Below are positions 2,740-57,437 of a stretch of DNA of 64,000 nucleotides, one piece after another; the first letter of the stretch is position 1, and each line of letters begins with the position of its first letter. Source of the DNA: Salvia splendens. Taxonomy: Eukaryota; Streptophyta; Magnoliopsida; Lamiales; Lamiaceae. The position numbers and the translations under genes are program-made. The stretch is from positions 10,516,729 to 10,580,728 of the forward strand of contig NC_056038.1 of assembly GCF_004379255.2 (NCBI RefSeq). Direction: 5' to 3'. The notes under the pieces are model-generated. The model was not told where the DNA came from. It did no database searches and saw only the letters and a program-made list of their open reading frames with translations.

Positions 2740-4305
2740 TGTAATTTGCTTGGAGCTGTATGATGTCTTGTAGTTTGAAGTTTCTAGTTTTAGTATTTCT
2801 GAAGGGTGTTAATTTTCGTATCAGGATTTAAGATCTTGACCTGCACCACACCTTCAATTATTGTCTACTGCTTCCACATAAGGCTGGATGCTTCTTAAAT
2901 TTGAGAAAAAAACAGCAACACTTATATTTTGAAGCTATGTCTATCAGAATATACATCCAATGTGCTCCAATATATTACTATCTAATGCAGTTTCTTTTAT
3001 CTCTTTATTCTGATGTTCAAAGGAAGTTCCATTGTAGAAAGACAGTTCTTGTTGTGTTTAGATACACTTTGCTAGTTCCACTGCACTGATGCTTGGTGTG
3101 GTTCTTTAGTAGTATTGTTTTATTCCCTTTTTTCATACTTATGTTTTTCTGTTTCCTTTTATTTCTCTGGTTTCTTTCGGGTGAAAGAATTGGATGTGGA
3201 AAGATTATCAGTGCTTTTGGTTGTGATTTGATAATAACATTATTAATTTCTTTCCACAATTCTCATTTATCTTGTTTAGCTGTAGGAGGTTGACTCCATT
3301 TTAGTACAATGAGGTGACAGTATGAATACAAAATATTTACATTCGTTATTGCTAGAGGGGCCTTAGTACTATAAAGTCTCCAGATTGTTCACCATCTTCA
3401 GGTCTGTTAATCTTAATACTGAATTTCCTTCCTCGTTTCACAAATAGGTTGAACTGCACCTGTATTGGTGAATGACAAATGAAGGTTTGTATGCATCCAC
3501 GTTCCACATTATCGAACGCATTTGGTGATTCCGCCTTTCACTCCATATAAGTTCATTAGGAGTTATCGAGAATCTAGTTTTCTAATTGATTTATCAATAT
3601 TGGTAACTTTCCGGATTCATTTAATGACAGTTGAATGTGGAAGATGTTTGCATTACGAAATCAAACATCTGGTGCTTAGCTTTTTTGTGCAGTGTTAACA
3701 ATACTTATTAGAGGGTGTTTAGATAGATTTTTCCTAGTCTTAACTTGATCCAGAAGAAGAATATATTGTGGAATTAGATGTATGTGTCTGTGGAGTGAAC
3801 GGTGTGATTAAGGAATGTAGTGATGGATGAACATATAGGGCCATGGCAGTGTTTGTTGTCTTGACCTTCTAATTTATTGATCTTCATGGTTTTTCATTGA
3901 AGATATAATGCAAAAAGTACCTCTTTGTTGATTTTGATGGTTGTTGGAGTTTATGTATTTCTTACATATCTGCATTAACGGTAGAGTATGCTTGTAGATT
4001 TTGATTCATGTGCTGTTAAGACTTCCTGATACAGGCATTTGTGTATTTGATTTTCAGAAACTCCAGTTATTCTTACACCATGGAATCTCCAAGAGCACAC
4101 TAATAGGGTAAGTTTCCTTTTGATATGGTTGTGTAAAGAGCGTGCATCTATATTGATTGAGGTATGACCTGAATAAGGAAATTGATTTTTATTTCTTTTG
4201 CCATTTTTCTTTGGTATAATAGGTGGGTAACATAAAACAATGTGCCGTTTATCTGTCTGAGTTCCTCAAAATCTTGAGTTATATACAAACTGAGTCATAA
4301 AGAAT
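2740..4305. other. Convergent intergenic region between RBL and the RTM2-like gene
   Basis: This holds the 3' UTR of the + strand RBL gene and the 3' flank of the - strand RTM2-like gene. A stretch around 4058-4110 (acceptor-like ttttcag, then gggtaagt) could be a non-coding downstream exon. I see no supported coding region. Its short ORFs have no recognisable content. Confidence 0.5.
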
Positions 4306-5295
4306 CTAGTTTTTATCTTTTGCATATACGGAGTTGTAGGTGATATAAGCGGTGAGTGCCACAATAACAAGCATAGCCGCCCCCAGATTCACCAGCAATT
4401 GCCTTTCTTGATTGAGCCCTTTCACCTCCTTCTTGTGTTTCTGTTTTTTTGATGCTCCATATGATTCTCTGTTGTCTGTGTGTCTTTCAGAGATATCTGT
4501 GGCTTCGTTTTTCTCCAATTTCATTGTCTTGGCCTCAGGTAATTCAGAACTTCGCATGCTCTCCTTGTGTACCCTCTCTTTTGTTTTGTTGTCCAGTCTC
4601 TCTGATGCAACGTGCTTTTCTTTGGTTTCACTGCTATCGTTTTTCACATCATTCTTGGAAGTTATATTTCCAGTATTTATCATTGGAGTAAAGCTTCGGC
4701 CTCTTTGATCACCATCTCTATCATGTGCATCCCTGCCACTGCTTTCCTTTTTTTCGGTTTGGGAAACTATGTTTTCCAGATTCACATCTCTAACATCTGG
4801 AGTACTTTCCTTTTGAGGGGAGGATTGCTTTCCCGTAGGAAGAGCGCCTTCTTTACCAACTCTCTCTCTTGGGACTGTAATGCTAAGTATCCCTCCATGG
4901 AACTTGGCACGAGCCGAATTCATTTGACCATTTTCCGGGACTTGAAAGTCCTCCAGAAAGCGACTCCATTTGTTGCCACCTACAAGGCGTTCCCCGCGAA
5001 CCCTGATGGTGTTCCGGCCTTCCATGCTCACCTTGATCTGCTTCTTCATGAAACCTGCAAAACAAAAGGTGAATTCTTGAGCTTTCTCCGATTTTAGACG
5101 TTGTAATATGTAGCTGTATATATTGACAACTTGATTCTCTTACTCACCAGGAAGATAAATATTGAGAATATGAGATTCAGCATTTAGCTGCCATTCTGAC
5201 TCCGGCTTGATAATTTCATAGACTGACCGGACCACGCCTGGTCTTGTTCCCCGTCTAGAACCAGCAGCACCGCCACCTCTCGGACTCGTTGCCAT
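4306..5295 (-). CDS. Small heat-shock-like membrane protein, RTM2-like
   Basis: Two exons: complement(5148-5295) encodes the N-terminus starting MATSPRGGGAAG, and complement(4306-5054) completes a protein of about 298 residues. The junction is GT-AG and the phase fits (LPG/FMKKQIKV). Residues about 20-115 form an alpha-crystallin (Hsp20) domain with IYLPGFMKKQIKVSMEG, FLEDFQVPENG and GGILSITVPRE. A long charged, Lys/Glu-rich middle follows. The C-terminus has one hydrophobic helix (about residues 272-290, NLGAAMLVIVALTAYI). This arrangement is that of Arabidopsis RTM2, a phloem-located sHSP-like protein that restricts long-distance movement of potyviruses. Many plants have several RTM2-like paralogues of unknown role, so I give the family and not the function. 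The start codon is only 151 bp from the end of the giant palindrome, so the upstream promoter must lie within or across that element. Confidence 0.85.
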
Positions 5296-5381
5296 CTCTT
5301 CAATTAGTTTCTTCTTAATATGGTAGATCTATCTTGAACTCTATAACATCAACTGTGTGTGTGCGACTTCCTCATGCATGG

Positions 5382-5385
<4 letters not shown>

Positions 5386-5437
<52 letters not shown>

Positions 5438-5446
5438 ATATATAGA
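5386..5446. repeat. (AC)n-(TA)n microsatellite
   Basis: An uninterrupted AC dinucleotide run (about 5386-5422) passes into a TA run that abuts the palindrome. The element probably inserted into the TA-rich microsatellite, and similar TA tracts flank both related elements. Confidence 0.9.
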
Positions 5447-6174
5447 GTAGTGATATATGGCAAACAACCCTTAACCAAATAACTAGAGAACAAATAATAG
5501 CCACAAGATCAAAAAAATCAAGGGCTAATATTAATTTTCGAATTTAATGAGATTTTAGCTCCCTCAATCACAAATTTACTCCATAATAACAAGTCAGGGG
5601 TATTATTGTCATTGAACATCGAATTAAATCCAAAATCATGTTAGGTGCGTAAATTGAATTGATTTGAAAACCGCGTCGCGTCATCTTTCACACAGCGTTT
5701 CGTCTCTCTTTTCCTCTCTGTTTAGCATCGTAAAATCGCCGATTAAACCGCATTCGCTGTCGCCGTCGCCGATTAAACCGCATTCAAGTCGTCAACATCA
5801 TCTACTTTGTCTAACAAATGGATACAAATCTAAAGGATTTTTCGAAAAGTAAAATTCCTACTGATTAACAATCATTTCTAGGTTTTATTTTACATCTGAT
5901 TTAGATTTATATTTTTTGTAGCTTTTCAACGAGCGAAGAAAAATACAACCGGAAGTTCCGGTTCTATTCACTCAGGTTCGAACCGTGAGTCATTCCTACT
6001 ATTTATTGTGATTATGAAAACCGTAGTTTCTGTGTATTGTGATTATGAAAACCGTAGTTTCTGTGGTTATATTTATAGTTGTTTCACTGATGTTAAGTGA
6101 TTATGAAAATCGTATGGCCTCTGTATTATGTTTACATGGTTAGATTTATAGTTGTTTTGCAAATAAGAGTGAAG

Positions 6175-6570
6175 TGAAATCATAATAAGAGTGATGTGTT
6201 TTGTGAACAAGAGTGAAATGTTTCCTGAACAAGAGTGATGTGTTTTGTGAAAAAGAGTGAAGTGTTTTTTAAATAAGGTGATGTGTTTTGTGAACAAGAG
6301 TGAAGTGTTTTGTGAACAAGAGTGAAGTAAAATCAGAATAAGAGTGATGTGTTTTGTGAACAAGAGTGAAGTAAAATCAGAATAAGAGTGATGTGTTTTG
6401 TGAACAAGAGTGAAGTGTTTTCTGAACAAGAGTGAAGTGTTTTCTGAACAAGAGTGAAGTAAAATCAGAATAAGAGTGATGTGTTTTGTGAACAAGAGTG
6501 AAGTAAAATCAGAATAAGAGTGATGTGTTTTGTGAACAAGAGTGAAGTGTTTTTTGAACAAGAGTGATGT
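6175..6570. repeat. 44-bp tandem repeat array (left arm, outer)
   Basis: Period 44 bp, itself two related 22-bp halves that both begin aagagtga (aagagtgatgtgttttgtga and aagagtgaagtaaaatcaga). Several units are mixed or truncated. Confidence 0.85.
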
Positions 6571-6619
6571 GTCTTTGATTTTTTGCTATATTGATTTTTT
6601 TTCTCATATCCATGAAGCT

Positions 6620-8640
6620 GCTGCAGCCGAAAAAAGGTCTAAGATGCGTGAGGATAGACCGCAACAAATTGTTGCACCTACAACTGAAATAAGGACAAAA
6701 AATCAACAAGACATTCGAACAACAACTTCTCCCGAAATAAGGTCCAAAAAGAAACATGATATGCAGAAACCAGAGAGTGAGTTATTTAATTATTTATGTA
6801 TTGGGCATAGTCATTAATGTATAATTTTGAGCTATATTAAGTGTGTATTCATGAATTTGATCACTTTTCTAGTATGTCTTCCAGCCTCAAAGCGTGGGAG
6901 GTCACAATGCATCGATGAACCAGAAATGCCTGCCAGAAAGAAACATGCTAAAGCAAAGAGTGTTAAATCTATTACATGTAAAATCAGAAGACCTAAATTG
7001 GTCGTAAAGATAGGGGTGAAAGTTCTGGTTGATGTCATTGAGAAAATGAACTCCAAACAAAAAGCTGCTCTGGAAGAGATGAGTTTCGGACAGCTTGTGC
7101 ATTTGAAGATACGATGTATTCCTGCTGACATGGCATTTTCACTACTTGAAAATTTTAATCATGACAACTGCTCCAGAATAAAACTTGTTGATGATCAACC
7201 ATTACACATCACTGAGGAAGATGTGTATGCTACGTTGGGACTGCCAAGAGGAGAGTTGATGATTAAAAGAGAAAAAAAGCATGAAATGAATGATGTGATG
7301 AAGACCATTGTCAATGCTAAGAAGAACAAAGCAATAACCCCAGTTGATTTGCAAGAGCAGCTTGATAGTGATCTAGAAGGTGGTGAGTGGTTTAAGAAAA
7401 TATTTCTTATTCTGTTGGACAATGTTCTGATCTCACCAACTGCCAACGGAAAATGTCTTGGCCGTATCTTGGACGATATTGGCAACATTTCAAATGTGAG
7501 GCAGTACAATTGGTGCAACTACGTGTTGGATACGCTAATCACAGCACATGATAGCTGGAAACTCAAGAACAAATCCACCTCATTCACTGGACCAATCACT
7601 TTCCTCTTGGTGAGTTTTCTATTTTAACCACTCCTTTATAGTGAAGTAAAAACATGCTTAGAGTGAAGTAAAATCATATTTAGAGTGATGTTTTTCACGG
7701 TTAAGTAGTAAATGCATGGTTAGAGTGATGTGTTTTTTATACATGAGTGAAATCAGAATAAGAGTGATGTGTTTTGCGAGTGAAGTAAAATGTGAATAAG
7801 AGTGAAGTGTTTTGTGAACAAGAGTGAAGTAAAATCAGAACAAGAGTGAAGTGTTTTGTGAACAAGAGTGATGTGTTTTGTGAACAAGAGTGATGTGTTT
7901 TGTGAACAAGAGTGAAGTAAAATGAGAATAAGAGTGAAGTGTTTTGTGAACAAGAGTGAAGTAAAATGAGAATAAGAGTGAAGTGTTTTGTAAACAAGAG
8001 TGAAGTAAAATCAGAATAAGAGTGAAGTCCTAGTAATGCATTTTATTATTGATCTGTTTTTGCAGGCATGCTATGTAGATAGGGTTGTCTACAGAACAAG
8101 ACTGGTGGTTAGAAGATTCCCAAATGTCCGTAACTGGACAGAATCCATTCTTAAGGAGAGAAGACAGATGAAATTTGATAATGGAGGCACCATTGGAAGA
8201 GGAAGCATAGAAAGTATCATTGATCCTGTCTCCATTGAATCTTTATATGCCAACAAGGATTCAATAACTGTCACTACCTCTGTCCCTTCAACTGATGAAG
8301 CAACTTTACCTGATGAAGCCCCCCTTCAAGTGATCAAGTTCCTTCGTCTGATGAAATTAAAAGTTCAATTAGGGAGGCTGCAGATGCAATTAGTAAAATG
8401 ATGAGGTATATAAAGGTTGCTCCAGCAAATACCAATGACATCAATTGCTTCAAAGTTGCAGCTATAAATGCACTAAAGATGGTTGGTGTGGAGGTTGATC
8501 AAGGGGACCAAGCTGTGTCTAAGCCAATTGAAAACATGACACAAGCTATGGAAGAGGATCAAGAAGATGATCCAGAATGGATTCAGCTTATGGAAAAACT
8601 GATGGAAATACATGATGAAAAATGCAAATTAGTGAATGAA
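6620..8640 (+). pseudogene. Broken multi-exon transposon gene, left copy (N-terminal part of a MULE/Ulp1-associated protein)
   Basis: Exons visible: about 6620-6778 (basic, Lys/Arg-rich), 6885-7609 and from 8066, with good GT-AG signals. Exon 2 encodes KIRCIPADMAFSLLENF and then VYATLGLPRGE. It ends FTGPITFLL, joining in phase to ACYVDRVVYRTRLVVRRFP. This order, an 'L-K-C-IPADL ... NF', a 'V..VLGLP.G' and a 'W..YVLD' region, is what I recall of plant transposon-carried proteins that end in an Ulp1-type cysteine protease. The protease domain is not present. The copy is broken by a 6-C run near 8320 where the right arm has 7, causing a frameshift. A 44-bp repeat array fills the intron between 7609 and 8066. 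Identification of the protein class is tentative. Confidence 0.6.
7640..8030. repeat. 44-bp tandem repeat array in the intron of the left transposon gene
   Basis: The same 22+22-bp units as the outer array, preceded by a diverged lead-in (7640-7745). It lies entirely between the donor at 7610 and the acceptor at 8065. Confidence 0.85.
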
Positions 8641-8644
8641 GGCA

Positions 8645-8950
8645 CAACACACATCACTCTTACTGTCATTTTACTTCACTCTTGTTCACAAACGCATCAC
8701 TCTTACTGTCATTTTACTTCACTCTTGTTCACAAAACACATCACTCTTACTCTGATTTTACTTCACTCGTGTTCACAAAACACATCACTCTTATTCTGAT
8801 TTTGTTTAACTCTTGTTCACAAAACACAAAACACAAAATCAGAGTAAGAGTGATGTGTTTTGTGAACAAGAGTGAAGTAAAATGACAGTAAGAGTGATGC
8901 GTTTGTGAACAAGAGTGAAGTAAAATGACAGTAAGAGTGATGTGTGTTGT
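8645..8950. repeat. Central 44-bp repeat array spanning the palindrome axis
   Basis: Repeat units point inward from both sides and meet around 8760-8835, where the unmatched spacer is itself made of repeat fragments (aaaacacaaaacacaaaa). The axis of the palindrome therefore falls inside the repeat, which suggests that the repeat mediated the head-to-head joining. Confidence 0.8.
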
Positions 8951-8989
8951 GCCTTCATTCACTAATTTGCATTTTTCATCATGGATTTC

Positions 8990-10970
8990 CATCAGTTTTT
9001 CCATAAGCTGAATCCATTCTGGATCATCTCTTGATCATCTTCCATAGCTTGTGTCATGTTTTCAATTGGCTTAGACACAGCTTGGTCCCCTTGATCAACC
9101 TCCACACCAACCATCTTTAGTGCATTTATAGCTGCAACTTTGAAGCAATTGATGTCATTGGTATTTGCTGGAGCAACCTTTATATACATCATCATTTTAC
9201 TAATTGCATCTGCAGCCTCCCTAATTGAACTTTTAATTTCAACAGACGAAGGAACTTGATCACTTGAAGGGGGGGCTTCATCAGGTAAAGTTGCTTCATC
9301 AGTTGAAGGGACAGAGGTAGTGACAGTTATTGAATCCTTGTTGGCATATAAAGATTCAATGGAGACAGGATCAATGATACTTTCTATGCTTCCTCTTCCA
9401 ATGGTGCCTCCATTATCAAATTCCATCTGTCCTCTCTCCTTAAGAATGGATTCTGTCCAGTTACGGACAGTTGGGAATCTTCTAACCACCAGTCTTGTTC
9501 TGTAGACAACCCTATCTACATAGCATGCCTGCAAAAACAGATCAATAATAAAATGCATTACAAGGACTTCACTCTTATTCTGATTTTACTTCACTCTTAT
9601 TTACAAAACACTTCACTCTTATTCTCATTTTACTTCACTCTTGTTCACAAAACACTTCACTCTTATTCTCATTTTACTTCACTCTTGTTCACAAAACACA
9701 TCACTCTTGTTCACAAAACACTTCACTCTTGTTCTGATTTTACTTCACTCTTGTTCACAAAACACTTCACTCTTATTCACATTTTACTTCACTCGCAAAA
9801 CACATCACTCTTATTCTGATTTCACTCATGTATAAAAAACACATCACTCTAACCATGCATTTACTACTTAACCGTGAAAAACATCACTCTAAATATGATT
9901 TTACTTCACTCTAAGCATGTTTTTACTTCACTATAAATGAGTGGTTAAAATAGAAAACTCACCAAGAGGAAAGTGATTGGTCCAGTGAATGAGGTGGATT
10001 TGTTCTTGAGTTTCCAGCTATCATGTGCTGTGATTAGCGTGTCCAACACGTAGCTGCACCAATTGTACTGCCTCACATTTGAAATGTTGCCAATATCGTC
10101 CAAGATACGGCCAAGACATTTTCCGTTGGCAGTTGGTGAGATCAGAACATTGTCCAACTTAATAAGAAATATTTTCTAAAACCACTCACCACCTTCTAGA
10201 TCACTATCAAGCTGCTCTTGCAAATCAACTGGGGTTATTGCTTTGTTCTTCTTAGCATTTACAATGGTCTTCATCACATCATTCATTTCATGCTTCTTTT
10301 CTCTTTTAATCATCAACTCTCCTCTTGGCAGTCCCAACGTAGCATACACATCCTCCTCAGTGATGTGTAATGGTTGATCATCAACAAGTTTTATTCTGGA
10401 GCAGTTGTCATGATTAAAATTTTCCAGTAGTGAAAATTCCATGTCAGCAGGAATACATCGTATCTTCAAATGCACAAGCTGTTCGAAACCCATCTCTTCC
10501 AGAGCAGCTTTTTGTTTGGAGTTCATTTTCTCAATGGCATCAACCAGAACTTTCACCCCTACCTTTACGACCAATTTAGGTCTTCTGATTTTACATGTAA
10601 TAGATTTAACACTCTTTGCTTTAGCCTGTTTCTTTCTGGCAGGCATTTCTGGTTCATCGATGCATTGTGACCTCCCACGCTTTGAGGCTGGAAGACATAC
10701 AAGAAAAGTGATCAAATTCATGAATACACACTTAATATAGCTCAAAATTATACATTAATGACTATGCCCAATACATAAATAATTAAATAACTCACTCTCT
10801 GGTTTCTGCATATCATGTTTCTTTTTGGACCTTATTTCGGGAGAAGTTGTTGTTCGAAGGTCTTGTTGATTTTTTGTCCTTATTTCAGTTGTAGGTGCAG
10901 CAATTTGTTGCGGTCTATCCTCACGCATCTTAGACTTTTTTTCGGCTGCAACAGCTTCATGGATATGAGA
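8990..10970 (-). pseudogene. Broken multi-exon transposon gene, right copy
   Basis: Reverse-complement partner of the left copy with exons about 10965-10790, 10687-9963 and from 9528. Here the poly-C tract is 7 long and that reading frame stays open. However, a Lys codon has become TAG near 10176 (after GEWF), and a 1-base deletion near 9029-9034 shifts the frame after MTQAMEDDQE. The lesions differ from those of the left copy, so the two arms have mutated independently since duplication. Confidence 0.6.
9560..9935. repeat. 44-bp tandem repeat array in the intron of the right transposon gene
   Basis: Mirror of the 7640-8030 array, in the intron between 9963 and 9528 on the minus strand. Confidence 0.85.
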
Positions 10971-11004
10971 AAAAAAATCAATATAGCAAAAAATCAAAGA
11001 CACG

Positions 11005-11455
11005 TCACTCTTGTTCAAAAAACACTTCACTCTTGTTCACAAAACACATCACTCTTATTCTGATTTTACTTCACTCTTGTTCACAAAACACATCACTCTT
11101 ATTCTGATTTTACTTCACTCTTGTTCACAAAACACTTCACTCTTGTTCACAAAACACATCACTCTTATTCTGATTTTACTTCACTCTTGTTCAGAAAACA
11201 CTTCACTCTTGTTCACAAAACACATCACTCTTATTCTGATTTTACTTCACTCTTGTTCACAAAACATATCACTCTTATTCTGATTTTACTTCACTCTTGT
11301 TCAGAAAACACTTCACTCTTGTTCACAAAACACATCACCTTATTCAGAAAACACTTCACTCTTTTTCACAAAACACATCACTCTTGTTCAGGAAACATTT
11401 CACTCTTGTTCACAAAACACATCACTCTTATTATGATTTCACTTCACTCTTATTT
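11005..11455. repeat. 44-bp tandem repeat array (right arm, outer)
   Basis: Mirror of the 6175-6570 array, about one unit longer. The consensus on the + strand includes attttacttcactcttgttc and acaaaacacatcactctt. Confidence 0.85.
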
Positions 11456-12221
11456 GCAAAACAACTATAAATCTAACCATGTAAACATAATACAAAGGCC
11501 ATACGATTTTCATAATCACTTAACATCAGTGAAACAACTATAAATATAACCACAGAAACTACGGTTTTCATAATCACCTAACATCAGTGAAACAACTATA
11601 AATCTAAACACAGAAACTACGGTTTTCATAATCACAATACACAGAAACTACGGTTTTCATAATCACAATAAATAGTAGGAATGACTCACGGTTCGAACCT
11701 GAGTGAATAGAACCGGAACTTCCGGTTGTATTTTTCTTCGCTCGTTGAAAAGCTACAAAAAATACAAATCTAAATCAGATGTAAAATAAAACCTAGAAAT
11801 GATTGTTAATCAGTAGGAATTTTACTTTTCGAAAAATCCTTTAGAGTTGTATCCATTTGTTAGACAAAGTAGATGATGTTGACGACTTGAATGCGGTTTA
11901 ATCGGCGACAGCGAATGCAGTTTAATCGGCGATTTTACGATGCTAAACAGAGAGGAAAAGAAAGACGAAACGCTATGTGAAAGATGACGAGACGCGGTTT
12001 TCAAATCAATTCAATTTACGCACCTAAAATGATTTTGGATTTAATTCGATGTTCAATGACAATAATACCCCTGACTTGTTATTATGGAGTAAATTTGTGA
12101 TTGAGGGAGCTAAAATCTCATTAAATTCGAAAATTAATATTAGCCCTTGATTTTTTTGATCTTGTGGCTATTATTTGTTCTCTAGTTATTTGGTTAAGGG
12201 TTGTTTGCCATAGATCACTAC

Positions 12222-12233
12222 TATATATATATA

Positions 12234-12271
<38 letters not shown>
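12222..12271. repeat. (TA)n microsatellite between two elements
   Basis: An almost pure TA run with a tgtgtg interruption separates the palindrome from the next element. Both elements end in it, so both seem to have used the same type of TA-rich target. Confidence 0.85.
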
Positions 12272-12272
<1 letters not shown>

Positions 12273-12479
12273 GTTAGTGATCAAAATATAACTAATCTTA
12301 AGTGTATAATTAGAGAACAAATCGCAGCCACACAAATAAATGGAACAAATATTATTTATTTTAATAATATAAAATAGGTCTAGGGTATTTTTGTAAATTA
12401 CATTATGGAAAGTAACATAATTAAGGCGGCAATTGATATCCGAAATGGGCGGATTCGAAATCACCGGGGATTCTGCATC

Positions 12480-12641
12480 CTAGATTTTCCGGCGCTGATG
12501 TTGAGCTCGGTGACGCCGGCCATCAACGAGGAGGACAAGGAGATCGCGGACAAGAAATTCTACTTCCATCCGTCGCCGCGGACCGCGCCGCAGCTGCTGC
12601 CGCTGTTTCTGGTGACCTCGCCGTGGGTGTCTACTTCGTGA
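12480..12641 (+). pseudogene. Captured C-terminal fragment of a VQ-motif protein
   Basis: The frame reads INEEDKEIADKKFYFHPSPR and then LLPLFLVTSPWVS before a stop at 12639-12641. The HPSPR and LLPLFPVTSP boxes are the conserved C-terminal signature of the VQ4/13/31-type VQ proteins, cofactors of WRKY factors and substrates of MAP kinases. The VQ core itself is missing. GC content is far above the flanking DNA, consistent with capture of host coding sequence by a transposon. Confidence 0.7.
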
Positions 12642-12800
12642 TCGGTCGTCTCTCCTCTTGTGCAATTCATTTTTAATCTTCCGTATTTAGCCATAAATGG
12701 ATTAATTAACGAAAAATTTGGGGACAAAGCGAATGATTTTTTAACATTTTTTGTTTCGTTTTGCTTCTTGTTTGGCTTAATATATGATGGCCGGGTGCAG

Positions 12801-13058
12801 TGGCCAGACTCCCTAGGCCCGAAGCTGCCAAAATACTTCAACGCAGGAATGTTCGTGTTCGAGCCGAGCCTGCCGACGTACCACAATCTGCTGCAGACGC
12901 TGAAGGTGACGGAGGCGACGCCCTTCGCAGAGCAGGACTTCCTGAACATGTTCTTCCGCGACGTGTACCACCCCATCCCCAACAACTACAACCTGGTGCT
13001 GGCGATGCTGTGGCGCCACCCGGAGAACGTGCGGCTAGAGGAGGTCAAGGTGGTGCAC
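12801..13058 (+). pseudogene. Captured galactinol synthase fragment
   Basis: After an intron-like tract ending gtgcag, the frame reads WPDSLGPKLPKYFNAGMF, then EPSLPTYHNLLQTLKVTEAT, FAEQDFLNMFFRDVYHPIP and VLAMLWRHPENV, and breaks off after VKVVH. These are consecutive blocks of galactinol synthase (GT8 family, raffinose-oligosaccharide pathway, UDP-Gal plus myo-inositol), including the FNAGMFV and FAEQDFLN motifs. Neither the N-terminal part nor the C-terminal hydrophobic pentapeptide is present. An intron boundary is retained, so the capture was from genomic DNA. Confidence 0.85.
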
Positions 13059-13496
13059 CTCACTGTTGAGGTGGAATCCCGAGATAGTGGAATGGGGTGG
13101 AGTTGAGGTCACAGACGTATGTATTTGTTTGTGAAGTTGGTATTTGTAGAGGTGTTGGTGGAATTTAGGTCTGGAGTGATGTGATACGTAGTGTGTGTTA
13201 ACATTGCATCTCCAAAACATATGCAATTATGTCGGCTTAGGTGGATTGGAAATTTGGAATAGGCAAGGATGCCCTCCCTGTATTGGTTGATCCTTTTTAA
13301 AAGAGCTAAATCCCATCATCATGATTAAAGATGGAATAATCAATTAGGTTTCATGCATAAACTAACTAACAAAATTGATTAAAGGTGAGAGAGAATTTAG
13401 AGACATGGAAAAGATGATAAAATAAAACATGTAAGATCCTTTTAATTTATTTCATAGTTTCTACTTTCGAGGTACTTAACCATTTACATGTGGTGC

Positions 13497-14325
13497 ATGA
13501 TTTTACTTCACTCTTAGCATGATCTTACTTCACTGTTGTTAACAAAACACATCACTCTTAGCATTATCTTACTTCACTATTGTTTACAAAACACATCACT
13601 CTTAGCATTATCTTACTTCACTCTTGTTTAGAAAACGCATCACTCTTAGCATGATTTTACTTCACTCTTATTTACAAAACGCATCACTCTTAGCATGATT
13701 TTACTTCACTCTTGTTTACAAAACGCATCACTCTTAGCATGATTTTACTTCACTCTTGTTTAGAAAACGCATCACTCTTAGCATGATTTTACTTCACTCT
13801 TGTTTAGAAAACATATCACTCTTAGCATGATTTTACTTCACTCTTGTTTAGAAAATGCATCACTCTTAGCATGATTTTACTCCACTCTTGTTTAGAAAAC
13901 ACATCACTCTTAGCATGATTTTACTTCACTCTTGTTTACAAAACGCATCACTCTTAGCATGATTTTACTTCACTCTTGTTTAGAAAACGCATCACTCTTA
14001 GCATGATTTTACTTCACTCTTGTTTACAAAACGCATCACTCTTAGCATGATTTTACTTCACTCTTGTTTAGAAAACGCATCACTCTTAGCATGATTTTAC
14101 TTCACTCTTGTTTAGAAAACGCATCACTCTTAGCATGATTTTACTTCACTCTTGTTTAGAAAACGCATCACTCTTAGCATGATTTTACTTCACTCTTGTT
14201 TAGAAAACACATCACTCTTAGCATGATTTTACTCCACTCTTGTTTAGAAAACACATCACTCTTAGCATGATTTTACTTCACTCTTGTTTACAAAACGCAT
14301 CACTTTTAGCATGATTTTAAAATAT
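13497..14325. repeat. 44-bp tandem repeat array, about 19 units
   Basis: A very regular array with a unit of exactly 44 bp (successive cttagcatgatt starts at 13645 and 13689), made of cttagcatgattttacttca plus ctcttgtttagaaaacgcat plus cact. It is the same family as the palindrome arrays, differing mainly in agcatga for attctga and tttagaaaacg for ttcacaaaaca. Confidence 0.95.
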
Positions 14326-15088
14326 CACTTAGCATACTTGTATTTTTCCACATGTTAAGACGTTTCCTCGAATCTTCCAATATCAAAACATTTAAAATAA
14401 AAAACTATTCCATCTGTGATTAATATATTAATAATTATTCCTAATTAATCAAATTAACAAAGTAATAAACCGTATGCTAATCACCCTTCGTTGGTCGTCT
14501 CTCTCTCACACACACACAACACGCTATTCGTCTCCATTTTCAACTCTATTCAATGTGTAGCATTTCCATTTTCAGCAATTCAACATTCGTTTAAGGTATA
14601 AGCTTGAAGAGTTTCTGAGATTTTGATTTTTTTTCTGCGTGTTGACGATTTGGTGCTGCCTCATTCACATATCCCTGCCTCCGTCGACTCCATCGCGGAG
14701 CCCCCCTCCGCCGCGATGTTGTAGCTATTTGTTCCACAAAGCGGTGGATGTTGACGACTGGATACCGACGGCGACGACGGTGGCGATGGCTTGAATGCGG
14801 TTTAATCGGTGATGACGATGGCAAGCAGAGAAGAGGAGAAAAGAGAAGAAGACGTTGTTTTCAAATGAATTTAATTTTTCACACCTAACCTGATTTTGGA
14901 GTTAATTCAATTGGCTATGCAATGGCCATAATACCCCCTATATTGTTATTATAGAGTAAATTTGTGATTGAGGGAATTAATATCTTATTAAATTCGAAAA
15001 TTAATACTAGCCCTTGATTTTTTTGATCTTGTGACTATGATTTGTTCTCTAGTTATTTGGTTAAGTGGCATTTGCCCTAGATCACTAC

Positions 15089-16151
15089 TATATATATATG
15101 AGCTTTGTGGGTGTAGTTTCTTGATATGAATAAGAAACTATTGGTTGGCAATAGGTTTGCTTGTACAGTTTGCGTTGTTTGGATTTGGATTGGTTAAGAA
15201 GGAACTTCTTTTCCCCAAAAGATAATAACTAAACTAGAAAAAAGTGATTACTTTGACAAGGATGAAAACTAGTCATATTACTTGACCTTGTATCCCAAGT
15301 AAGATTATCCTGTATTTGATCATTTTCTTTTCCTTATTCTGTAAGAATTGTGATGACTTGTCACATTTACTAATTGCTTATCCATATTACACATGTACTA
15401 ATTCAAGTGAACATTGGATAGAAAGTGTGACTCGGATTGACTCATTCTGCTAAGAACATTAATTTAAATAAATTAGGCGGATTATGTGTTCAATTTGATA
15501 AAAAATTTTCCTTGGTATTCGAAGAAAGGAAAAAAGAAAATGATTATATCCACAGAAAGTCAAAGTAAAATTTGTTTGCCCAAGATATGCACTTTTTGTT
15601 CTTCATGCTGCAGTTGAAGACTTGTAGTTAGGCTGGAATAAATTTTGACATACCAGTTATGATCAAATTTGAATAGTACTATTTGTTTGGTCACTCGGTG
15701 TTTTTACAAATTTCTACTAATATTGTCAATTAATAAAAATCGTACAAATTAAATTAGACATCTCTATATTATTCTTTGAATTTTAGTTTGTATTCCCCTG
15801 TCTCACTACAAGTGAGGCGTTTCTTTCGACAGTTATTTTGAGATGATGATAATAAATAGTAGGTAGAGTGGAGAGAAAGTAAAATTAAAGAGAGAATAAT
15901 ATTTACTTTCTTTTTATTCTAACTATTTATTATTGTATCATTTTTGCAAAGCAACATCGGAATTGAAATGCCTCAATTGTAGTGAGACGAAGGGAGTAGC
16001 ATTGTTTAAAAATTTAACGATATAGGGGTGTCACGTTTATAGAGAAGTTAAATAGGTAGAGTCGTAGCATGATGGATGAGAGGTGGGCTTACCTCCCATG
16101 ATAATGATAAGCATTTCAATAAGGTGACCTTGCGTGGTGTATTTCGTATGA
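15089..16151. other. AT-rich intergenic stretch
   Basis: No gene is recognisable. The only structured part is the small MITE at about 15795-15997. The rest is AT-rich single-copy-looking sequence with short ORFs only. Confidence 0.5.
15795..15997. mobile_element. Stowaway-like MITE
   Basis: The left end cctgtctcactacaagtgag pairs with the right end, read in reverse as ccttcgtctcactacaattg, forming a TIR of about 25 bp. The right border continues gaagggagta as in Stowaway elements. It is about 200 bp long with no coding capacity. Confidence 0.6.
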
Positions 16152-50625: not shown

Positions 50626-53600
50626 TCAATCCCGATCCCCTCGACGGCCACAGCGCTGCGGTTGTGTCCTGGTCCGGCGTGTGCTAGGCCTTGGAACAGT
50701 CGTATTGGTCTACAACAAACAACAAACAGTTCAAATTGTCTTGATTTTAGGGTTCTAAAAGTGTAAGGTTGCTCTTGAATACTACTTGCAATGTTTATGA
50801 AATGAAAAGAGATCTAGACAAATACCTCCAGGTTGGACGCCGCAGGCCTGTCACCGCCGTCCGTCGTGGTTGGCGTATTGGTCTCACTGGGCTGTGAACT
50901 CTGGCCAACCTCGGTTCGGGCATCTACGCGGGGATCATTAGTGCATGTTCTTCGGTTATGCCCATCTTGTCCGCACCGACGACACCTGACTACATAGATT
51001 TGTCTCAGAGACTCTGATCCATTCGCATGTTGACGAACCTGGGGTTCTTCACGCCTCAGTTTCTTTGGCCGTCCACGTTGTCGCTTTGTCCTCGGGGGTG
51101 CCAGTTCAAATCCAACATCTGAAGACTTCGGCCAATTACCCATCCCATTGATTGGGTAGAGGACATTCTCGTACAGAAGCGTCATAGTGGACCGTAAATA
51201 GTAGCGGGATATATAGTCTGCTACATCCTTCCCATTCTTGTTGATTGTTGCGATGGCGTGAGTGCATGGGATCCCAGTCAGCTGCCATAATCTGCAAGAG
51301 CAAGTAAAGTCACGCATGTTGACTACATACTAACCTGACGGTCCCGACACTTGGTACGAAGCCTCTCCGTTCCAAGTTGATCTCCAAGAAGAAGCCCTCG
51401 TCAAATACTTATCCACTATCTCTTTGATAACGGGCGGCAGTGGGTGATCGTATGTGTTGATCCATTGGCCTCTAATCTGTATCCTCTCCATCTGACTTGT
51501 CCGGATCTCCTCCAGCATGGTCACAATGGCCAGCTCCCGAGCAATTGCTATCTTCGAATTAAAGGTTTCACATATATTGTTCAGGATTATATCACAACAA
51601 ACATGCGGCGAGAAAAAAGCCTTCACCCATTTTTCTTTAGGAGCAACACCGAGTAGGTATTGATGTGCCTGGGGATATATAATCCGCAGTGCATCCATTC
51701 GCTCCACATACTCTTCGGGGGTTGTACTCGACGCAAGCTCCCACAGCATCTCCTTAAAATTCTCCCCAATGAATCTCTTCTTGAAGTTGTTGTATATGTG
51801 CTGTACACAGAAGCGATGCTCACTTTGTGGGAAATCCTCGAGGATTGCTTTTGCAAGACCCTATCAAATGTGGCTTCCAGCAAATTAGTACAAGCCCTAG
51901 AAAATCGCTTTATCACACTCAAACTACTACTGCATAGGCCAAAATCACAACTATAATACTATTACTTTGAAATCACATTTGAAGTATACACGTTTTAATG
52001 AAATCACATTAGTCGTACCTTCTGCTGGTCAGACATGAATACAAATCTTGGGGCATTCTCGTGTATTTGGAGGTCATCTGCCAGATAGGTGAGGAACCAT
52101 TTCCACTGTTCGTAGCTCTCAGCCTCCGTCACAGCCCACGCAATAGGCCACCAACCGTTATTTGGATCAATTCCCATAGCCGTCATAAGTTGCCCTCTGT
52201 ACATGCCTCGCAAGAAACAGGCATCCAAGAATATAATTGGACGACAAAAACGCATCCAACCTTTTTTCAGCGGTCCAAGACAACAATAAAATCTCAAGAA
52301 TCGCGGGCCCACAACTTCAGGATCCCTGAAGTTCTCGTAGTGTATATGCACACTAGAGTCAGCGTGTGTCCGTTCCAATTCTGCTTTGTAGTCAAATAGT
52401 CTCCGATACTGTAGTCCTGCCTTGCCAAAAATGCCTTCCAGTGCACTATCTCTTGCGCGGTACGCCTTCATCCTGCCAACTTTGAGTCCGAATTCCTCAT
52501 CAACACACTGCCGTATAGCCGCCAACGGGATGTGGGGATTTGCCTTGATTTTCTCCATGTATCGCTCGGCTAGCCACTTGGACGTCAGCCATCGCTGATC
52601 CAACACTTGAGAGCATGTGTGAGCATGGTCTCTCTGCATATTCACTACCACAAAATCAGTATTGTTGTGGGCTTCGATCTTCGTTGCATAAACATACCAC
52701 TCACATGACTTTCCCTTACAAATGGCACGAAGCCTTTTGCCATCATTCTTCGCTACGTGTACAGGTCGTCTGGTCATTATCGCGTACTGGCGAATGACCT
52801 GATAGAAATAATCTCTATCCTTAAAGAAATCACCGGGCTTCCAATTTGGAACCTCATTTGTCAGCTTGAAGGGGGTGTACTTGATACCTTTTTTACGCAA
52901 GCCTTCCAAGTCCTCTAGATCTTGGATATCTTGTAGCTCATCTACTGCATCTGGCTCGTATAGGGGGTTTGTATATGACAAGTTCCCTTTCTCAACAACA
53001 GGGGAGAACTTTCGCTTTTTCCTAGACCCTCCGCTGCCTTCACCAGACTGCTGGGCAGAGCCGTGTGCTTCGGTGTGTGGCTCTGCACTTCCTTGTTGTT
53101 GCTGACATAACGACTCGTAGTATGAAGTAAACATTTGTTCATCACGACACATGTTGGCCAAAGAGATAAAATGGTCAACCTCATCAGCATCATCATCGTC
53201 ATTAATTCCCTCGTTATGAAGATGACATCCATCAGGAACATAATCGAACAACGGACAATACACATCGGGTACATCTCCTGCCGCGTGTATGGGTTCTGCA
53301 CAAGCCTCATCTGGAGCTTGAGCTGGAGCTGGGTCTGGAACTGGATCTGGAGCTGAAGCTGGAGCTGACTCTTGCAATTGGGTGTCGGTGTCAGCGGCGG
53401 CCATGAACAATTCATGGGTAATGTCCTCAATGATTGGCATGAAATCATTGTCTACCCGTATGTCTGGCTGTGGCTGACTACCACGGTCCAAAACTGGTCG
53501 GTACACATCTTCATTTGCAAATGATCCTGGCCCGACCGAATCTGGTTGGTGTACTACAGATTCAGCCTCAGTCGTCGGTCCAGCGACATCGACAGTCGGA

Positions 53601-54956
53601 TTGGAAGGGTCAGCAGGTGGAGATCTAACTACATCCTCAGTCTCAGTCGTCGGTTCAGCGACGTCGACAATCGGATTGGAATGGTCAGTAGGTGGAGATC
53701 TAACTACATCCTGCAAAGTGCATTATCACAAATGCAGGACTAAATTACAAACGACAATAAAAATCACAAACGAGGTACTAAATCATTATGTAAATCACAC
53801 ATGTCAATACCTCTTGTACGTGTGCATGAGAGTCTCCACCTCCAACTTCTGCTTCTCCGACAGAGCCAACTAGACATATTTTTTCTGCAACAAATTCCAT
53901 GTCGTGTATTGATACTTCTCCAACCTCATAAACCGGTGCTTCAGGGGATACAGCTTCAAATGCTTTCGCCAAATTTTGCCTGGCTACCTCGTCGGCCATC
54001 TTTCTCTGAGCACGATCATCTTCTAAACTTTTCGTCAGATATTCCTCAAACTCAACATCCCTAGCATACCAGCAAATCATTAAAGGCTCATGCCGTTGCC
54101 CTTGAAACTGAGACCGTTGCCTCCTCTTCGGTATAGGCTTTTGCCTTTGCACATTCGGTGTGGCTTCCTCAATCTCTTCAATGATGACTCCGGGGGGTTT
54201 ACAAGCCCTTAAATTAAGAAGCTCTTGCGCCTCATCCTTCATTTTTTTCAGTATGGCTTGAGCCCGGGTTATCTCCACAACGTAGATGTGAACTAACTTT
54301 GTCGTTGTAGACGCCACTTTGAGGAAATCCTGCAGATGTGTTTCCTCGACAATGGGCAACAACGGGCCTCCGATTAAAACCCCTGTGCACTCATGACTGT
54401 ACTTCGGATCGCAGTAATAGAACTCACATATAATCTTCCTATCATACTTCAGCTTTAGTACCATGCTCGAGAGGTCTATAAGCTGGAATTTTTCTATGTT
54501 ACAGAGATCGAAGTACGTCAATTGCCCACCAACATACTTTTTCGCATCGTTCATACTGAAGAATGAACCTCCATGATGGAAAGCAATTGAAAATCTTCCA
54601 GGTGCATCCCTTATTAAGGCGGACAATAAGCGCACAGAACAAATCACTCAAAAATAAATACACAACGAAAATACATTTGTGGAGCCTGAATAACAAAATC
54701 AGTATCCGGATGAGCAAAAATATATTCACACAAAATCGATTTTGTAAGAGTAAATCACAACCAGAGTATTAAAAGTTCACTTACTGTATTCATCCTCTGG
54801 GACGAAAAACTCCAGGTCAGGATCTCGGATATCCCAGGTTTCTTCTTCCACATCTATGACCACTGGTGGTGGTCGGCGGTATGGTGGCGGTGGCGGGGGG
54901 GTGGGTTTGCTTCGACGGCGTGACGACGATTCACCGTGCTTCCGTTTAGGCGCCAT
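50626..54956 (-). pseudogene. MURA-type MULE transposase gene with one in-frame stop
   Basis: Exons on the minus strand: 54956-54785, 54646-53811, 53710-52019, 51860-50826 and 50709-50626, GT-AG and in phase, about 1,272 codons. Order: basic Pro-rich N-terminus (MAPKRKHGESSS); a PB1-like N-terminal domain (FHHGGSFF, YVGGQLTYFDL); an acidic, repetitive linker with two near-copies around DVVRSPPTD/DVVRSPPAD; a MuDR DNA-binding region (residues about 600-700). The MULE DDE domain has Asp in IIFLDACFLRGMYRG, Asp in FVFMSDQQKGLAKAIL, CVQHIYNNFKKRF and ETFNSKI. Then follow a SWIM zinc finger, CSCRLWQLTGIPCTHA, and a CCHC knuckle, CRRCGQDGHNRRTC. A TAG at 51332-51330 lies in frame between GPSG and YVVNMRDF and would remove the SWIM finger. 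Exon 2's acceptor is the least certain. A 4-codon upstream ORF overlaps the start codon. Confidence 0.88.
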
Positions 54957-55643
54957 TCATGCAAGATAGTTTTCACAGCGGGGAGAGTGCAGATACAATG
55001 AAGATGAAAACAATGTTGAGAATTGTTGGGTTTCACAATGGTTATAATTTTAGGCGGGAGTGGGAAAACTTGCTATTTTGTTAGACTTTTAGGCGGGTAG
55101 ACGATGGAAGGCCGAAAAAATGGTACGTGAAATTTTTGAAACTTATTTCATAATTTACACAGGGTGTCCTGAATACGTGGCCGCCATCGTGTGGAATGGT
55201 CGTTTGAACTGCCGCTGTAGCACCATCATTACTGAGACACATCTGACGTGCGGCCCGTCAAATCAGGCAGTGTGGCAGGTGGGATACAGGGCCGCCAATG
55301 CAGACCCATGGTGATATGACAATAAAGCCCTTTTAGGGCTGAAGGGCATTTTGGTCCGAAAAACCTTATTTGTGATTATGGTTTAGGTCAGAGGCATGTG
55401 GCGATATTTTTTTTAGTCAGAGGTCTGGAGTGAAACTTTTGAAAAGGTCAGGGTTATTTTATGCAGTTCACTCTAAAATTTAAGCTCATTGTTGATGAAA
55501 TTTATACTCAAATGCTATTACTTTCATAAAAATAAAATAAAATAAAATCATAAACACACAAAAAGTCAAAAGGGTCTCACTTTCCACTACCCTACTTCAA
55601 TTATTACACACTCCAACAATCACTACCTCTCTTCATTTATTAT

Positions 55644-57366
55644 GAGTAAAAATTCCATGCTCATTCCATACCAAGTGGCATGATTATGTGGTATACCTTA
55701 CCACTAATTTATTGACAAATGGAAGTAAAAAAGGTCCCACATGCCACATAAATTTAACTCCAATATAGTAAGGTAACGACGTGGCAATTCTTTCATTTAT
55801 GGAAGGTTATTAGATATGGAATGACTATAGACATGATACTCCAATATATCCCTTATTATATAAAAATATTTTTATGTGTATTGCATTTTCATTCGGTCTG
55901 TGTATTGCATTTTCATTCGGTCTTATCACGCAACAGAGAAGAAATCATCTCCAATTCTCCATCCCTTTTGAATTCCATGGGTAAGTTTTCCTCCATTATC
56001 TTTATATGATGTATGTATGTGTTGTTTGACTACATAGATAGTGGAATATGTTATTATATCCATTTTGTAATATGTTTTTGAAAATACACATTCTTGATTT
56101 TACAATTGACGTTCTTCTATTACTAATAATTTCATTTTGATTGAATAATGATAAGATAGTGAATCCTTAATTTGAATTTATTAACATATAGTAGTATTTT
56201 TTAATTGCGTGAATTTATTGAATACAGATTTTCACATGAATCCAAGCCACCAAACCATGGTATGCATGTCTAAAAGTTATGCATATTAGCTTATCTATAT
56301 ATATATATTATATCTATATGAATATATCATATTTGAGTTCTTTGTTGCTGTACAAATTTGTAGGGTCTGTCATCTAATATGATGTCGATTCAGCATGCTC
56401 ATGCACAACCTTTCTCATATACTTCATTATTGACTCAGGTATATTTCACACTCAAAAGATGATATATTACCTTATTTTCTTATGTGTTTCATTTGTAACT
56501 AGATATACATTATTTTTGCTTTGTAGGGTTACCAAGGTGTTCCAAGTGTACCTCAAATCATGTTTCCGAGTGACTGCCCCCCTTGATTTTATCTCAAGTT
56601 GAGAAAAGTACTTTGGATTGGTGAAATTTATTTTAGGTATCGTTGCTAGAATGTGAAGAAATACTTTTGAAGAGATTTTTGTGATACTTTAAATTTGAAT
56701 AAGGAGTAGTATTTTTTTTTCTTTTGTTTATGAAAGTGGGAGACATATTATGTACTAGTTACCGACTAAGTTTCATAAGATTATACTTTTCGGTGATCTT
56801 CAAGTTATTCTATTTGAAATCATACTATTTTATTTTTAGTTTTTGATTTTCTTGTTTATAAAATTTCTTAATATTTTACTTGCTAATAATTGAAAACTGT
56901 ATAATTTATTATGCTAAGCTATAGTCATAAATTTTATTTCTATATATAAATATAAAACAAAGACAAATATTCTTACTATCAAATCCTAAAATAGCACTAC
57001 TATCAAACAATTATAACATGAAAGTTATGTATACTAGTATGATTACTTTTTTTTTTTTTATAAAATATTACTATTATATTGAAGTATATTTTACGCCAAT
57101 TCTAGGAAATTATAAGAGAGATACTGAAGTATCAAATTTATAATTTTTATATAATAAGGGAGATATTGGAGTATCATGTCTATAGTCATTCCATATCTAA
57201 TAACCTTCCATAAATGAAAGAATTGCCACGTCGTTACCTTACTATATTGGAGTTAAATTTATGTGGCATGTGGGACCTTTTTTACTTCCATTTGTCAATA
57301 AATTAATGGTGAGGTATACCACATAATCATGCCACTTGGTATGGAATGAGCATGGAATTTTTACTC
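55644..57366. mobile_element. Non-autonomous MULE (1.7 kb) containing a small spliced gene
   Basis: Exact 9-bp duplication atttattat (55635-55643 and 57367-57375). The ends gagtaaaaattccatgctca and its reverse complement begin a TIR of over 200 bp, containing aagtggcatgattatgtggt. It inserted into the same Stowaway MITE as the 6.5-kb MULE, 161 bp from it, but belongs to another TIR family. The interior holds the four-exon small gene. Confidence 0.93.
55977..56586 (+). CDS. Small four-exon gene inside the MULE (about 56 residues), function unknown
   Basis: Exons 55977-55980, 56228-56259, 56364-56438 and 56527-56586. Every junction has a good donor (gtaagt, gtatgc, gtatat) and a T-rich acceptor (ttgaatacag, aatttgtag, gctttgtag), and lengths sum to 57 codons with no internal stop. 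The product would be Met/Gln/Ser/His-rich: MDFHMNPSHQTMGLSSNMM, then HAHAQPFSYTSLLTQ, GYQGVPSVPQIMF and PSDCPP. I recognise no domain. It could be a shrunken copy of a host gene (low-complexity tails of plant transcription factors look like this) or an element gene. The start could also lie in an upstream exon, since the first exon has only four coding bases. Confidence 0.5.
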
Positions 57367-57437
57367 ATTTATTATACACTCTAATTTCTTAAAACTCATA
57401 ACTAAATCTTACTCTTAAACTTTTGACCGAGGAAGTA

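Follow-up and report, generated by a model that had tools for sequence, protein, structure and literature searches.

The Mu killer (Muk) locus of maize is a well-known case in which a rearranged transposon silences the family it came from, and foldback elements consist of long inverted repeats around a short loop. In a 64-kb window of the Salvia splendens genome (NC_056038.1, 10,516,729 to 10,580,728; all positions below refer to this window), we analysed a palindrome in which two copies of one half of a Mutator-like element (MULE), each carrying an accessory gene, are joined tail to tail. Long inverted repeats flank a short loop here as well, but the junction of the sage palindrome has no other copy among the best-scored matches, in which it differs from foldback elements. 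Muk is described as an internally deleted and partly duplicated MuDR with two mudrA-side ends and an inverted duplication of mudrA, the centre of which resisted sequencing (PMC3440606). By that description the two loci share their plan: two copies of one terminus face outward, inverted part-copies of the adjacent gene lie between them, and the remainder of the element is deleted. The parallel with Muk drawn in the first-pass annotation of this stretch holds for the architecture but not for the duplicated gene, because Muk carries about 1.3 kb of the transposase gene mudrA in inverted orientation, whereas the sage locus carries about 3.3 kb with an accessory gene and motif arrays; no inverted duplication of transposase sequence was found, and in the parental elements the transposase lies past the junction. 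Muk is described as a dominant silencing locus, an activity that is hypothetical for the sage locus. We give an even chance to the reading that it is a one-off hairpin locus in which the inverted accessory-gene half silences its MULE family in trans, as Muk does. No report of such a locus was found in literature listings and the opening lines of abstracts.

The duplicated gene and its arrays also appear to resemble the VANC anti-silencers and their targets. As described for VANDAL21/Hiun of Arabidopsis (PMC5735166), the element has an accessory gene beside its transposase, and a short motif forms one-orientation tandem arrays in introns of this gene and elsewhere in non-coding DNA; the sage gene also gives a weak match to DUF1985. 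It differs in that it has no DUF287 match, its DUF1985 match is below the cut-off, its motif TCACTCTT is unlike YAGTATTAY, and DNA binding or demethylation by its product would be hypothetical. DUF287 was not among the hits at E up to 1 for the arm pieces and the protein relatives; since it was not found and binding is hypothetical, we did not file the accessory gene as VANC.

Self-alignment confirmed the near-perfect 6.8-kb palindrome with arms of about 3.3 kb that had been noticed at this place. Without the flanking TA repeats, arm 1 spans 5438-8759 (+ strand, gene-side terminus and DUF1985-like gene, reading 5' to 3' toward the axis) and arm 2, its inverted copy, spans 8835-12230 (− strand); the loop between them (8760-8834) is itself array-like and measures 75 nt rather than the 70 bp first given. 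A local alignment that includes some of the TA repeat (5417-8759 against 8835-12244) has 3,446 columns with 3,261 matches, 46 substitutions and 139 gap columns, the last accounted for by seven indel events of 58, 44, 22, 7, 6, 1 and 1 nt, and the identity over aligned bases is 98.6%. Exact inverted identity extends over 259 nt at its longest, compared with 12-18 nt in 20 dinucleotide-preserving shuffles. Substitutions are scattered along the arms (7, 2, 5, 5, 5, 7, 6, 2, 5 and 2 per tenth from the outer end to the axis), and no zone of recent homogenisation is clearly visible.

Neither arm is a whole MULE; each comprises only the gene-side half. Both outer ends are the gene-side terminus, which is followed by the 5' region of the gene with a putative inward promoter (arm 1, 5438-5817, + strand, before an ATG at 5818; arm 2, 11857-12230, − strand, from the alignment and the gene model). 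The transposase and the other terminus are missing from the palindrome, and no MULE domain was detected in the seven arm pieces scanned with Pfam. The earlier description as two whole elements, ends included, joined head to head thus needs correcting twice: an arm has one terminus and lacks the transposase, and the genes of the two arms converge, with the copies joined at their 3' ends.

The gene model has five exons with GT-AG introns in both arms, and the boundaries match between the arms. Exon 1 (5818-5848 in arm 1, 11856-11826 in arm 2) has a GT donor in both arms, and exon 2 (5922-5984; 11752-11690) and exon 3 (6618-6776; 10954-10796) have AG and GT in both; they are followed by exon 4 (6885-7609; 10687-9963) and by exon 5 (8066-8649; from 9528 in arm 2), which comparison with other copies shows to be 3'-truncated. 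In the copy L012 the reading frame runs about a dozen codons past the cut to a stop, whereas here the gene is cut at 8649. The gene is broken in both arms: codon 255 of the arm 2 copy, in exon 4, is a stop, and arm 1 has one C fewer than arm 2 in a poly-C tract of exon 5, with arm 2 having one A fewer farther on. Exons 1-4 of the two arms show 15 amino-acid-changing differences (stop included) against 5 silent ones, which we read as the absence of selection.

Protein searches, the last of which scored 8,000 candidates, returned one family and linked the accessory protein to no VANC. The named members are all from Salvia (S. splendens and S. divinorum), and there are six ENA proteins and one FAR1/MULE fusion model; the close named relatives are from S. 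splendens, with P0001 at 90% identity. By eye, the start of the translation resembles P0005, and the part near the end resembles P0006-P0008. No relative of solved structure was found (best E 0.87). The DUF1985 match comes from the fourth exon of arm 1, at E 0.0038 and 17.7 bits where Pfam sets a cut-off of 35.1, and was given by one of seven arm pieces. Weak matches were also obtained with P0001 (E 0.02) and P0002 (E 0.025; two of six proteins), with P0009 (0.0039; one of eight) and with exon 4 of the copy L020 (E 0.0035; one of nine pieces), where the profile positions overlap those in arm 1. DUF1985 was absent from the arm 2 pieces, which are split by the stop codon, and gave no match in P0015; several of the proteins without a match do not contain the relevant region. 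We also considered a relative of the Kaonashi-type ULP kind, and no Ulp1 domain was found. An Ulp1/C48 domain, which looked likely by eye in the parental exons past the junction, gave no Pfam match with the pieces or with the joined exons and was dropped.

The non-coding parts of the gene are filled with arrays of 22/44-bp motif units. Array 1 lies in intron 2 (5985-6617, + strand, 18 copies of AAGAGTGA) and array 2 in intron 4 (7610-8065, + strand, 12 copies of AAGAGTGA); their counterparts in arm 2 lie at 10995-11463 and 9566-9932, both on the − strand. In the gene model, neither the exons nor the 5' region contains a copy of AAGAGTGA. Across both strands of the window there are 105 TCACTCTT sites, 72 in the palindrome arrays, 32 in a neighbouring element and 1 elsewhere, and none in the gene-model exons. 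The spacer letters are more variable than the motif core; the sites were anchored on TCACTC, and those six columns are conserved by construction. A third array forms the axis. Its left half (8650-8828, − strand by its parental match) is inverted relative to arrays 1 and 2, and its right half lies at 8835-8950 (+ strand).

The elements from which the palindrome derives were sought with its outer end. The query 5447-6447 gave 94 matches in the best 40 of 2,451 candidates; 34 were near full length, 32 of these outside the window, and 20 of the 32 were sampled. MULE transposase sequence lies past the gene on the opposite strand in 16 of the 20 fetched copies and was not seen within the fetched stretches of L009, L013, L023 and L027. 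The domain matches were clear for PF10551 in L012 (E 2.3e-19) and L020 (8e-21) and for the FAR1 domain in L026 (E 4.7e-16). Likewise, among the best-scored matches, exon 5 was located 39 times outside the window, and in 27 of these cases a transposase copy follows 2.4-4.7 kb downstream, on the other strand. With the L012 transposase as query, the 40 best copies show 94-100% identity, which suggests that the parental family has been active recently. A second terminus was reached in L026 (about 8.6 kb, with transposase) and in L023 (about 8.4 kb, none detected); the L012 stretch ends after about 8.9 kb without one, and other members must therefore be longer. The second element end is 79-81% identical to the end of the arm over about 80 bp, TA repeats included, and this other end type is present in L023, in L026 and in the neighbouring element. 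Clusters of at least three motifs occur in forward orientation in all 20 fetched copies and in reverse orientation as well in 15, mostly in the transposase half.

Over the end, exon 3-4 and exon 5 segments also used for the trees below, the two arms differ by 1.75%, close to the median of 1.96% for the core of subfamily A (L009-L012 and L014; the more diverged L013 and L015 were left out), and subfamily B (ten copies, L018-L027) has a median pairwise divergence of 0.97%. These values lead us to date the palindrome to roughly the time at which subfamily A was spreading, and to place the spread of B after it. As a separate observation, the 5' end of subfamily B is 10-14% diverged from the arms, and its exons 3-4 only 4-5%. 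This could mark B as a candidate that escaped silencing directed at the ends, or its non-coding parts may just have changed faster. It has 61-96 of the 360 arm-1 terminus 21-mers, compared with 86-254 of 360 in L009-L017; this is no more than a correlation, and older divergence may account for it.

The palindrome is a single-locus derivative, with no second copy of the arrangement found among the best-scored matches. The query 8400-8830, which joins the gene end to the axis array, matched 41 places (best 40 of 1,200 candidates scored), and only the two arms in the window cross the junction; the other 39 of 39 matches stop at query position 247-250 (window 8646-8649). Because a copy sharing the junction would outscore one that stops there, these counts are informative on uniqueness even though they cover best-scored matches. 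An inverted copy of the exons or of a 374-bp end probe was found in none of the 20 fetched stretches, and no inverted pairs within 15 kb occur among the 39 exon-5 and 40 transposase matches. The genome search for further palindromic copies that had been proposed thus returned none in this set.

The structure of the palindrome is established and its origin is well constrained. A 22/44-bp array does hold the axis, as had been reported, but it is an inverted copy of one from farther along the parent: 8650-8828 best matches the reverse complement of a parental array (177 bp, 97.7%, in L012 and L010) that sits about 3 kb beyond the gene end. With the gene-side half as X and the parental array as Y, the palindrome accordingly reads X - rc(Y) - Y - rc(X). 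Such a structure could be accounted for in two steps. During repair or copying of an element, the gene strand would have switched template into the complementary strand of the downstream array, and fold-back synthesis on its own strand would then have produced the second half. Alternatively, array 3 may descend from a reversed array in the transposase half that a plain deletion brought next to the gene end, but the best same-orientation match reaches 92.2% (L028), compared with 97.7% for the inverse. We disfavoured an origin by mere folding of the parent within its own array, since array 3 has the opposite orientation to the parental array that it matches best. Independent insertion of two elements in tail-to-tail position was likewise disfavoured, because the junction is seen nowhere else among the best-scored matches and the arms are sisters in the trees, with modest support (FastTree 0.825, IQ-TREE bootstrap 72). 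These trees were built from the end, exon 3-4 and exon 5 segments of the arms and 18 copies (L016 and L017, which lack a segment, were dropped). The arms have in common three derived sites that are absent from the seven subfamily A copies L009-L015, and carry 11 and 14 private substitutions, respectively, relative to the 18 other copies. The common junction is a stronger argument for a single event than the tree.

The published S. splendens assembly is described as tetraploid and comprises 807 Mb in 22 pseudochromosomes, the longest scaffold measuring 47.13 Mb (PMC8408255). The window, on C7, has a homeologous region on C8. Two parts of the window, 4156-5393 (88%) and 15089-15792 (86%), align to this region only four bases apart; the palindrome and the neighbouring element are both absent there, and the C8 region is an empty site. 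Nongenic flanks of the homeologues differ by 6.74% (638 sites). With this value as a clock, the divergence of the arms places the palindrome at about a fifth to a quarter of the age of the homeologue split. The insertion lies in the upstream region of an HSP20-domain gene, presumably RTM2-like, an exon of which was identified at 4306-5139 (− strand) by a domain scan and the homeologue match; judged by eye, the left arm starts about 140 bp from its putative start codon. MULE insertions are accompanied by target site duplications of 8-11 bp. Both outer termini of the palindrome sit in TA repeats, and so do the ends of L023 and, for L026, the left one; where the element ends are embedded in TA/CA microsatellite in this way, a target site duplication is indistinguishable.

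How might the palindrome silence its family? Each arm carries its own 5' region facing the axis, which would provide two putative inward promoters, and a transcript begun at either of them would run over the axis and on into the opposite arm in antisense; that it crosses is proposed because the gene's own 3' end has been lost. Before splicing, the RNA could become double-stranded over as much as about 3.3 kb, and would then be diced. The resulting small interfering RNAs (siRNAs) would act in trans on the family, by post-transcriptional silencing of the accessory gene and by RNA-directed methylation of the 5' ends and intronic arrays. Transcription entering from either side, which the first-pass annotation had invoked, was discarded as a requirement, read-through from flanking genes included, because the arms carry the gene's own 5' region.

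The targets of such siRNAs can be listed from 21-mers. Arm-1 21-mers are present in all 20 sampled copies, each of which contains 46-254 of 360 from the terminus, 192-720 of 847 from the introns, 20-994 of 1,462 from the exons and 29-111 of 134 from array 3. The transposase half, compared in four copies, contains 17-192 intron and 1-32 array 3 21-mers and no exon 21-mers, and direct silencing would consequently fall on the accessory gene and the non-coding arrays rather than on the transposase coding sequence. Silencing of the neighbouring element at 12.3-15.1 kb through common repeats, also suggested earlier, looks weak and was set aside as a main effect: that element holds 14 terminal and 9 intron 21-mers, 23 in all, and the rest of the window holds none.

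Several observations weigh against this reading. The plants in which Muk silences are reported to carry short antisense transcripts from an internal promoter, which those authors contrast with a read-through hairpin model (Skibbe et al., PMC3440606). Subfamily B, at 0.97%, appears to have multiplied later than the divergence of the arms, at 1.75%, so that any silencing would have been incomplete or would not have reached B; the arms are about as diverged from each other as the copies of the subfamily A core, and nothing suggests that the hairpin has been kept perfect. The tree support for sister arms is modest, and the DUF1985 match is weak, being below the cut-off and missing from the arm 2 pieces. 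The main rival, which we consider nearly as likely and put a little below an even chance, is an inert relic: a one-off inverted duplication that was silent from the start, for instance by methylation in cis, and had no effect on the family in trans. The apparently later amplification of B fits a relic well, and so does the decay of both arms, with the excess of changing over silent differences in exons 1-4 and the single-base indels in exon 5; but coding decay has no bearing on the function of a hairpin, and the splice sites, the 5' region and the 259-nt exact inverted run have all persisted. The silencing function is a live hypothesis, about evenly balanced.

The other explanations are far less probable. 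An artefact, either a read with a missed adapter or misjoined copies, would be suggested by the PacBio reads of the S. splendens assembly, whose average of 7.4 kb is about the size of the palindrome (PMC8408255), yet it is highly unlikely: the two arms carry 25 private substitutions between them, a simply folded read is not expected to contain an inverted axis array, and the left and right flanks are contiguous, four bases apart, at the homeologous empty site. That the whole palindrome is a foldback unit transposing via its two outward termini, as was once entertained for this stretch, is very improbable; its termini do lie within TA repeats, as in L023 and at the left end of L026, but all 39 other best-scored matches stop at the junction, none of the 20 sampled copies has an inverted gene copy, and no inverted pair was seen within 15 kb among the exon-5 or transposase matches. 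We regard it as equally improbable that the insertion acts only in cis, altering the HSP20-domain gene through its upstream region with no effect in trans. The closeness of the left arm to the putative start codon and the uninterrupted homeologue would favour such an effect, but it is compatible with silencing in trans and not exclusive of it.

A more specific version of the hairpin reading is that the locus is a natural "silencer of the anti-silencer", a hairpin that would have arisen from the anti-silencing gene of a MULE together with the arrays to which the encoded protein would bind; one RNA would then remove the counter-defence of the transposable element and mark the protected regions for methylation. 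VANC and RNA-directed methylation are described as having opposite effects on the non-coding regions of the element (PMC10398659). With element arrays in both orientations, the repeats used for counter-defence would themselves make such hairpins likely to arise. We consider this version unlikely, though less so than an artefact or a mobile unit. The locus is an assembled natural case of the Muk architecture in another plant lineage, and because its parents, empty site and junction are readable, the origin and age of such a locus are open to study. If the arms are diced, it would link hairpin-triggered silencing with anti-silencing encoded by a transposable element and with tandem target arrays, and it raises the possibility of a VANC-like arrangement outside Arabidopsis.

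The neighbouring element (12272-15100) is a two-ended, non-autonomous member of the family, recognised by array and domain scan, with 18.5 units of the 44-bp array and a captured Glyco_transf_8 fragment that we take to be galactinol-synthase-like. A 1-kb query from it had one other full-length match (98%, C5:31298859-31299859), and 268-bp matches on C2 (96%) and C1 (95%) may be the host sources. Within the family, the copy L027 (C17:13394900-13404800) contains five complete head-to-tail copies of exon 5 plus array, a sixth being cut by the end of the stretch, with a period of about 1.14-1.18 kb inside one family copy. The S. splendens protein P0014 (FAR1-RELATED SEQUENCE 5-like) matches accessory exon 5 in its first residues and MULE transposase in the remainder. 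This transposase part lies on the opposite strand in the 16 sampled transposase-bearing copies, and over most of its length it is only about 60-67% identical to them; the fusion must therefore stem from a locus of another arrangement or from a faulty model. Elsewhere in the window, 52004-53719 belongs to a different MULE, with a MuDR-type transposase open reading frame containing PF10551 and PF03108, and 55642-55867 and 57143-57368 form a 226-nt inverted repeat, 99% complementary with 1,275 nt between, which resembles the ends of a young non-autonomous element.

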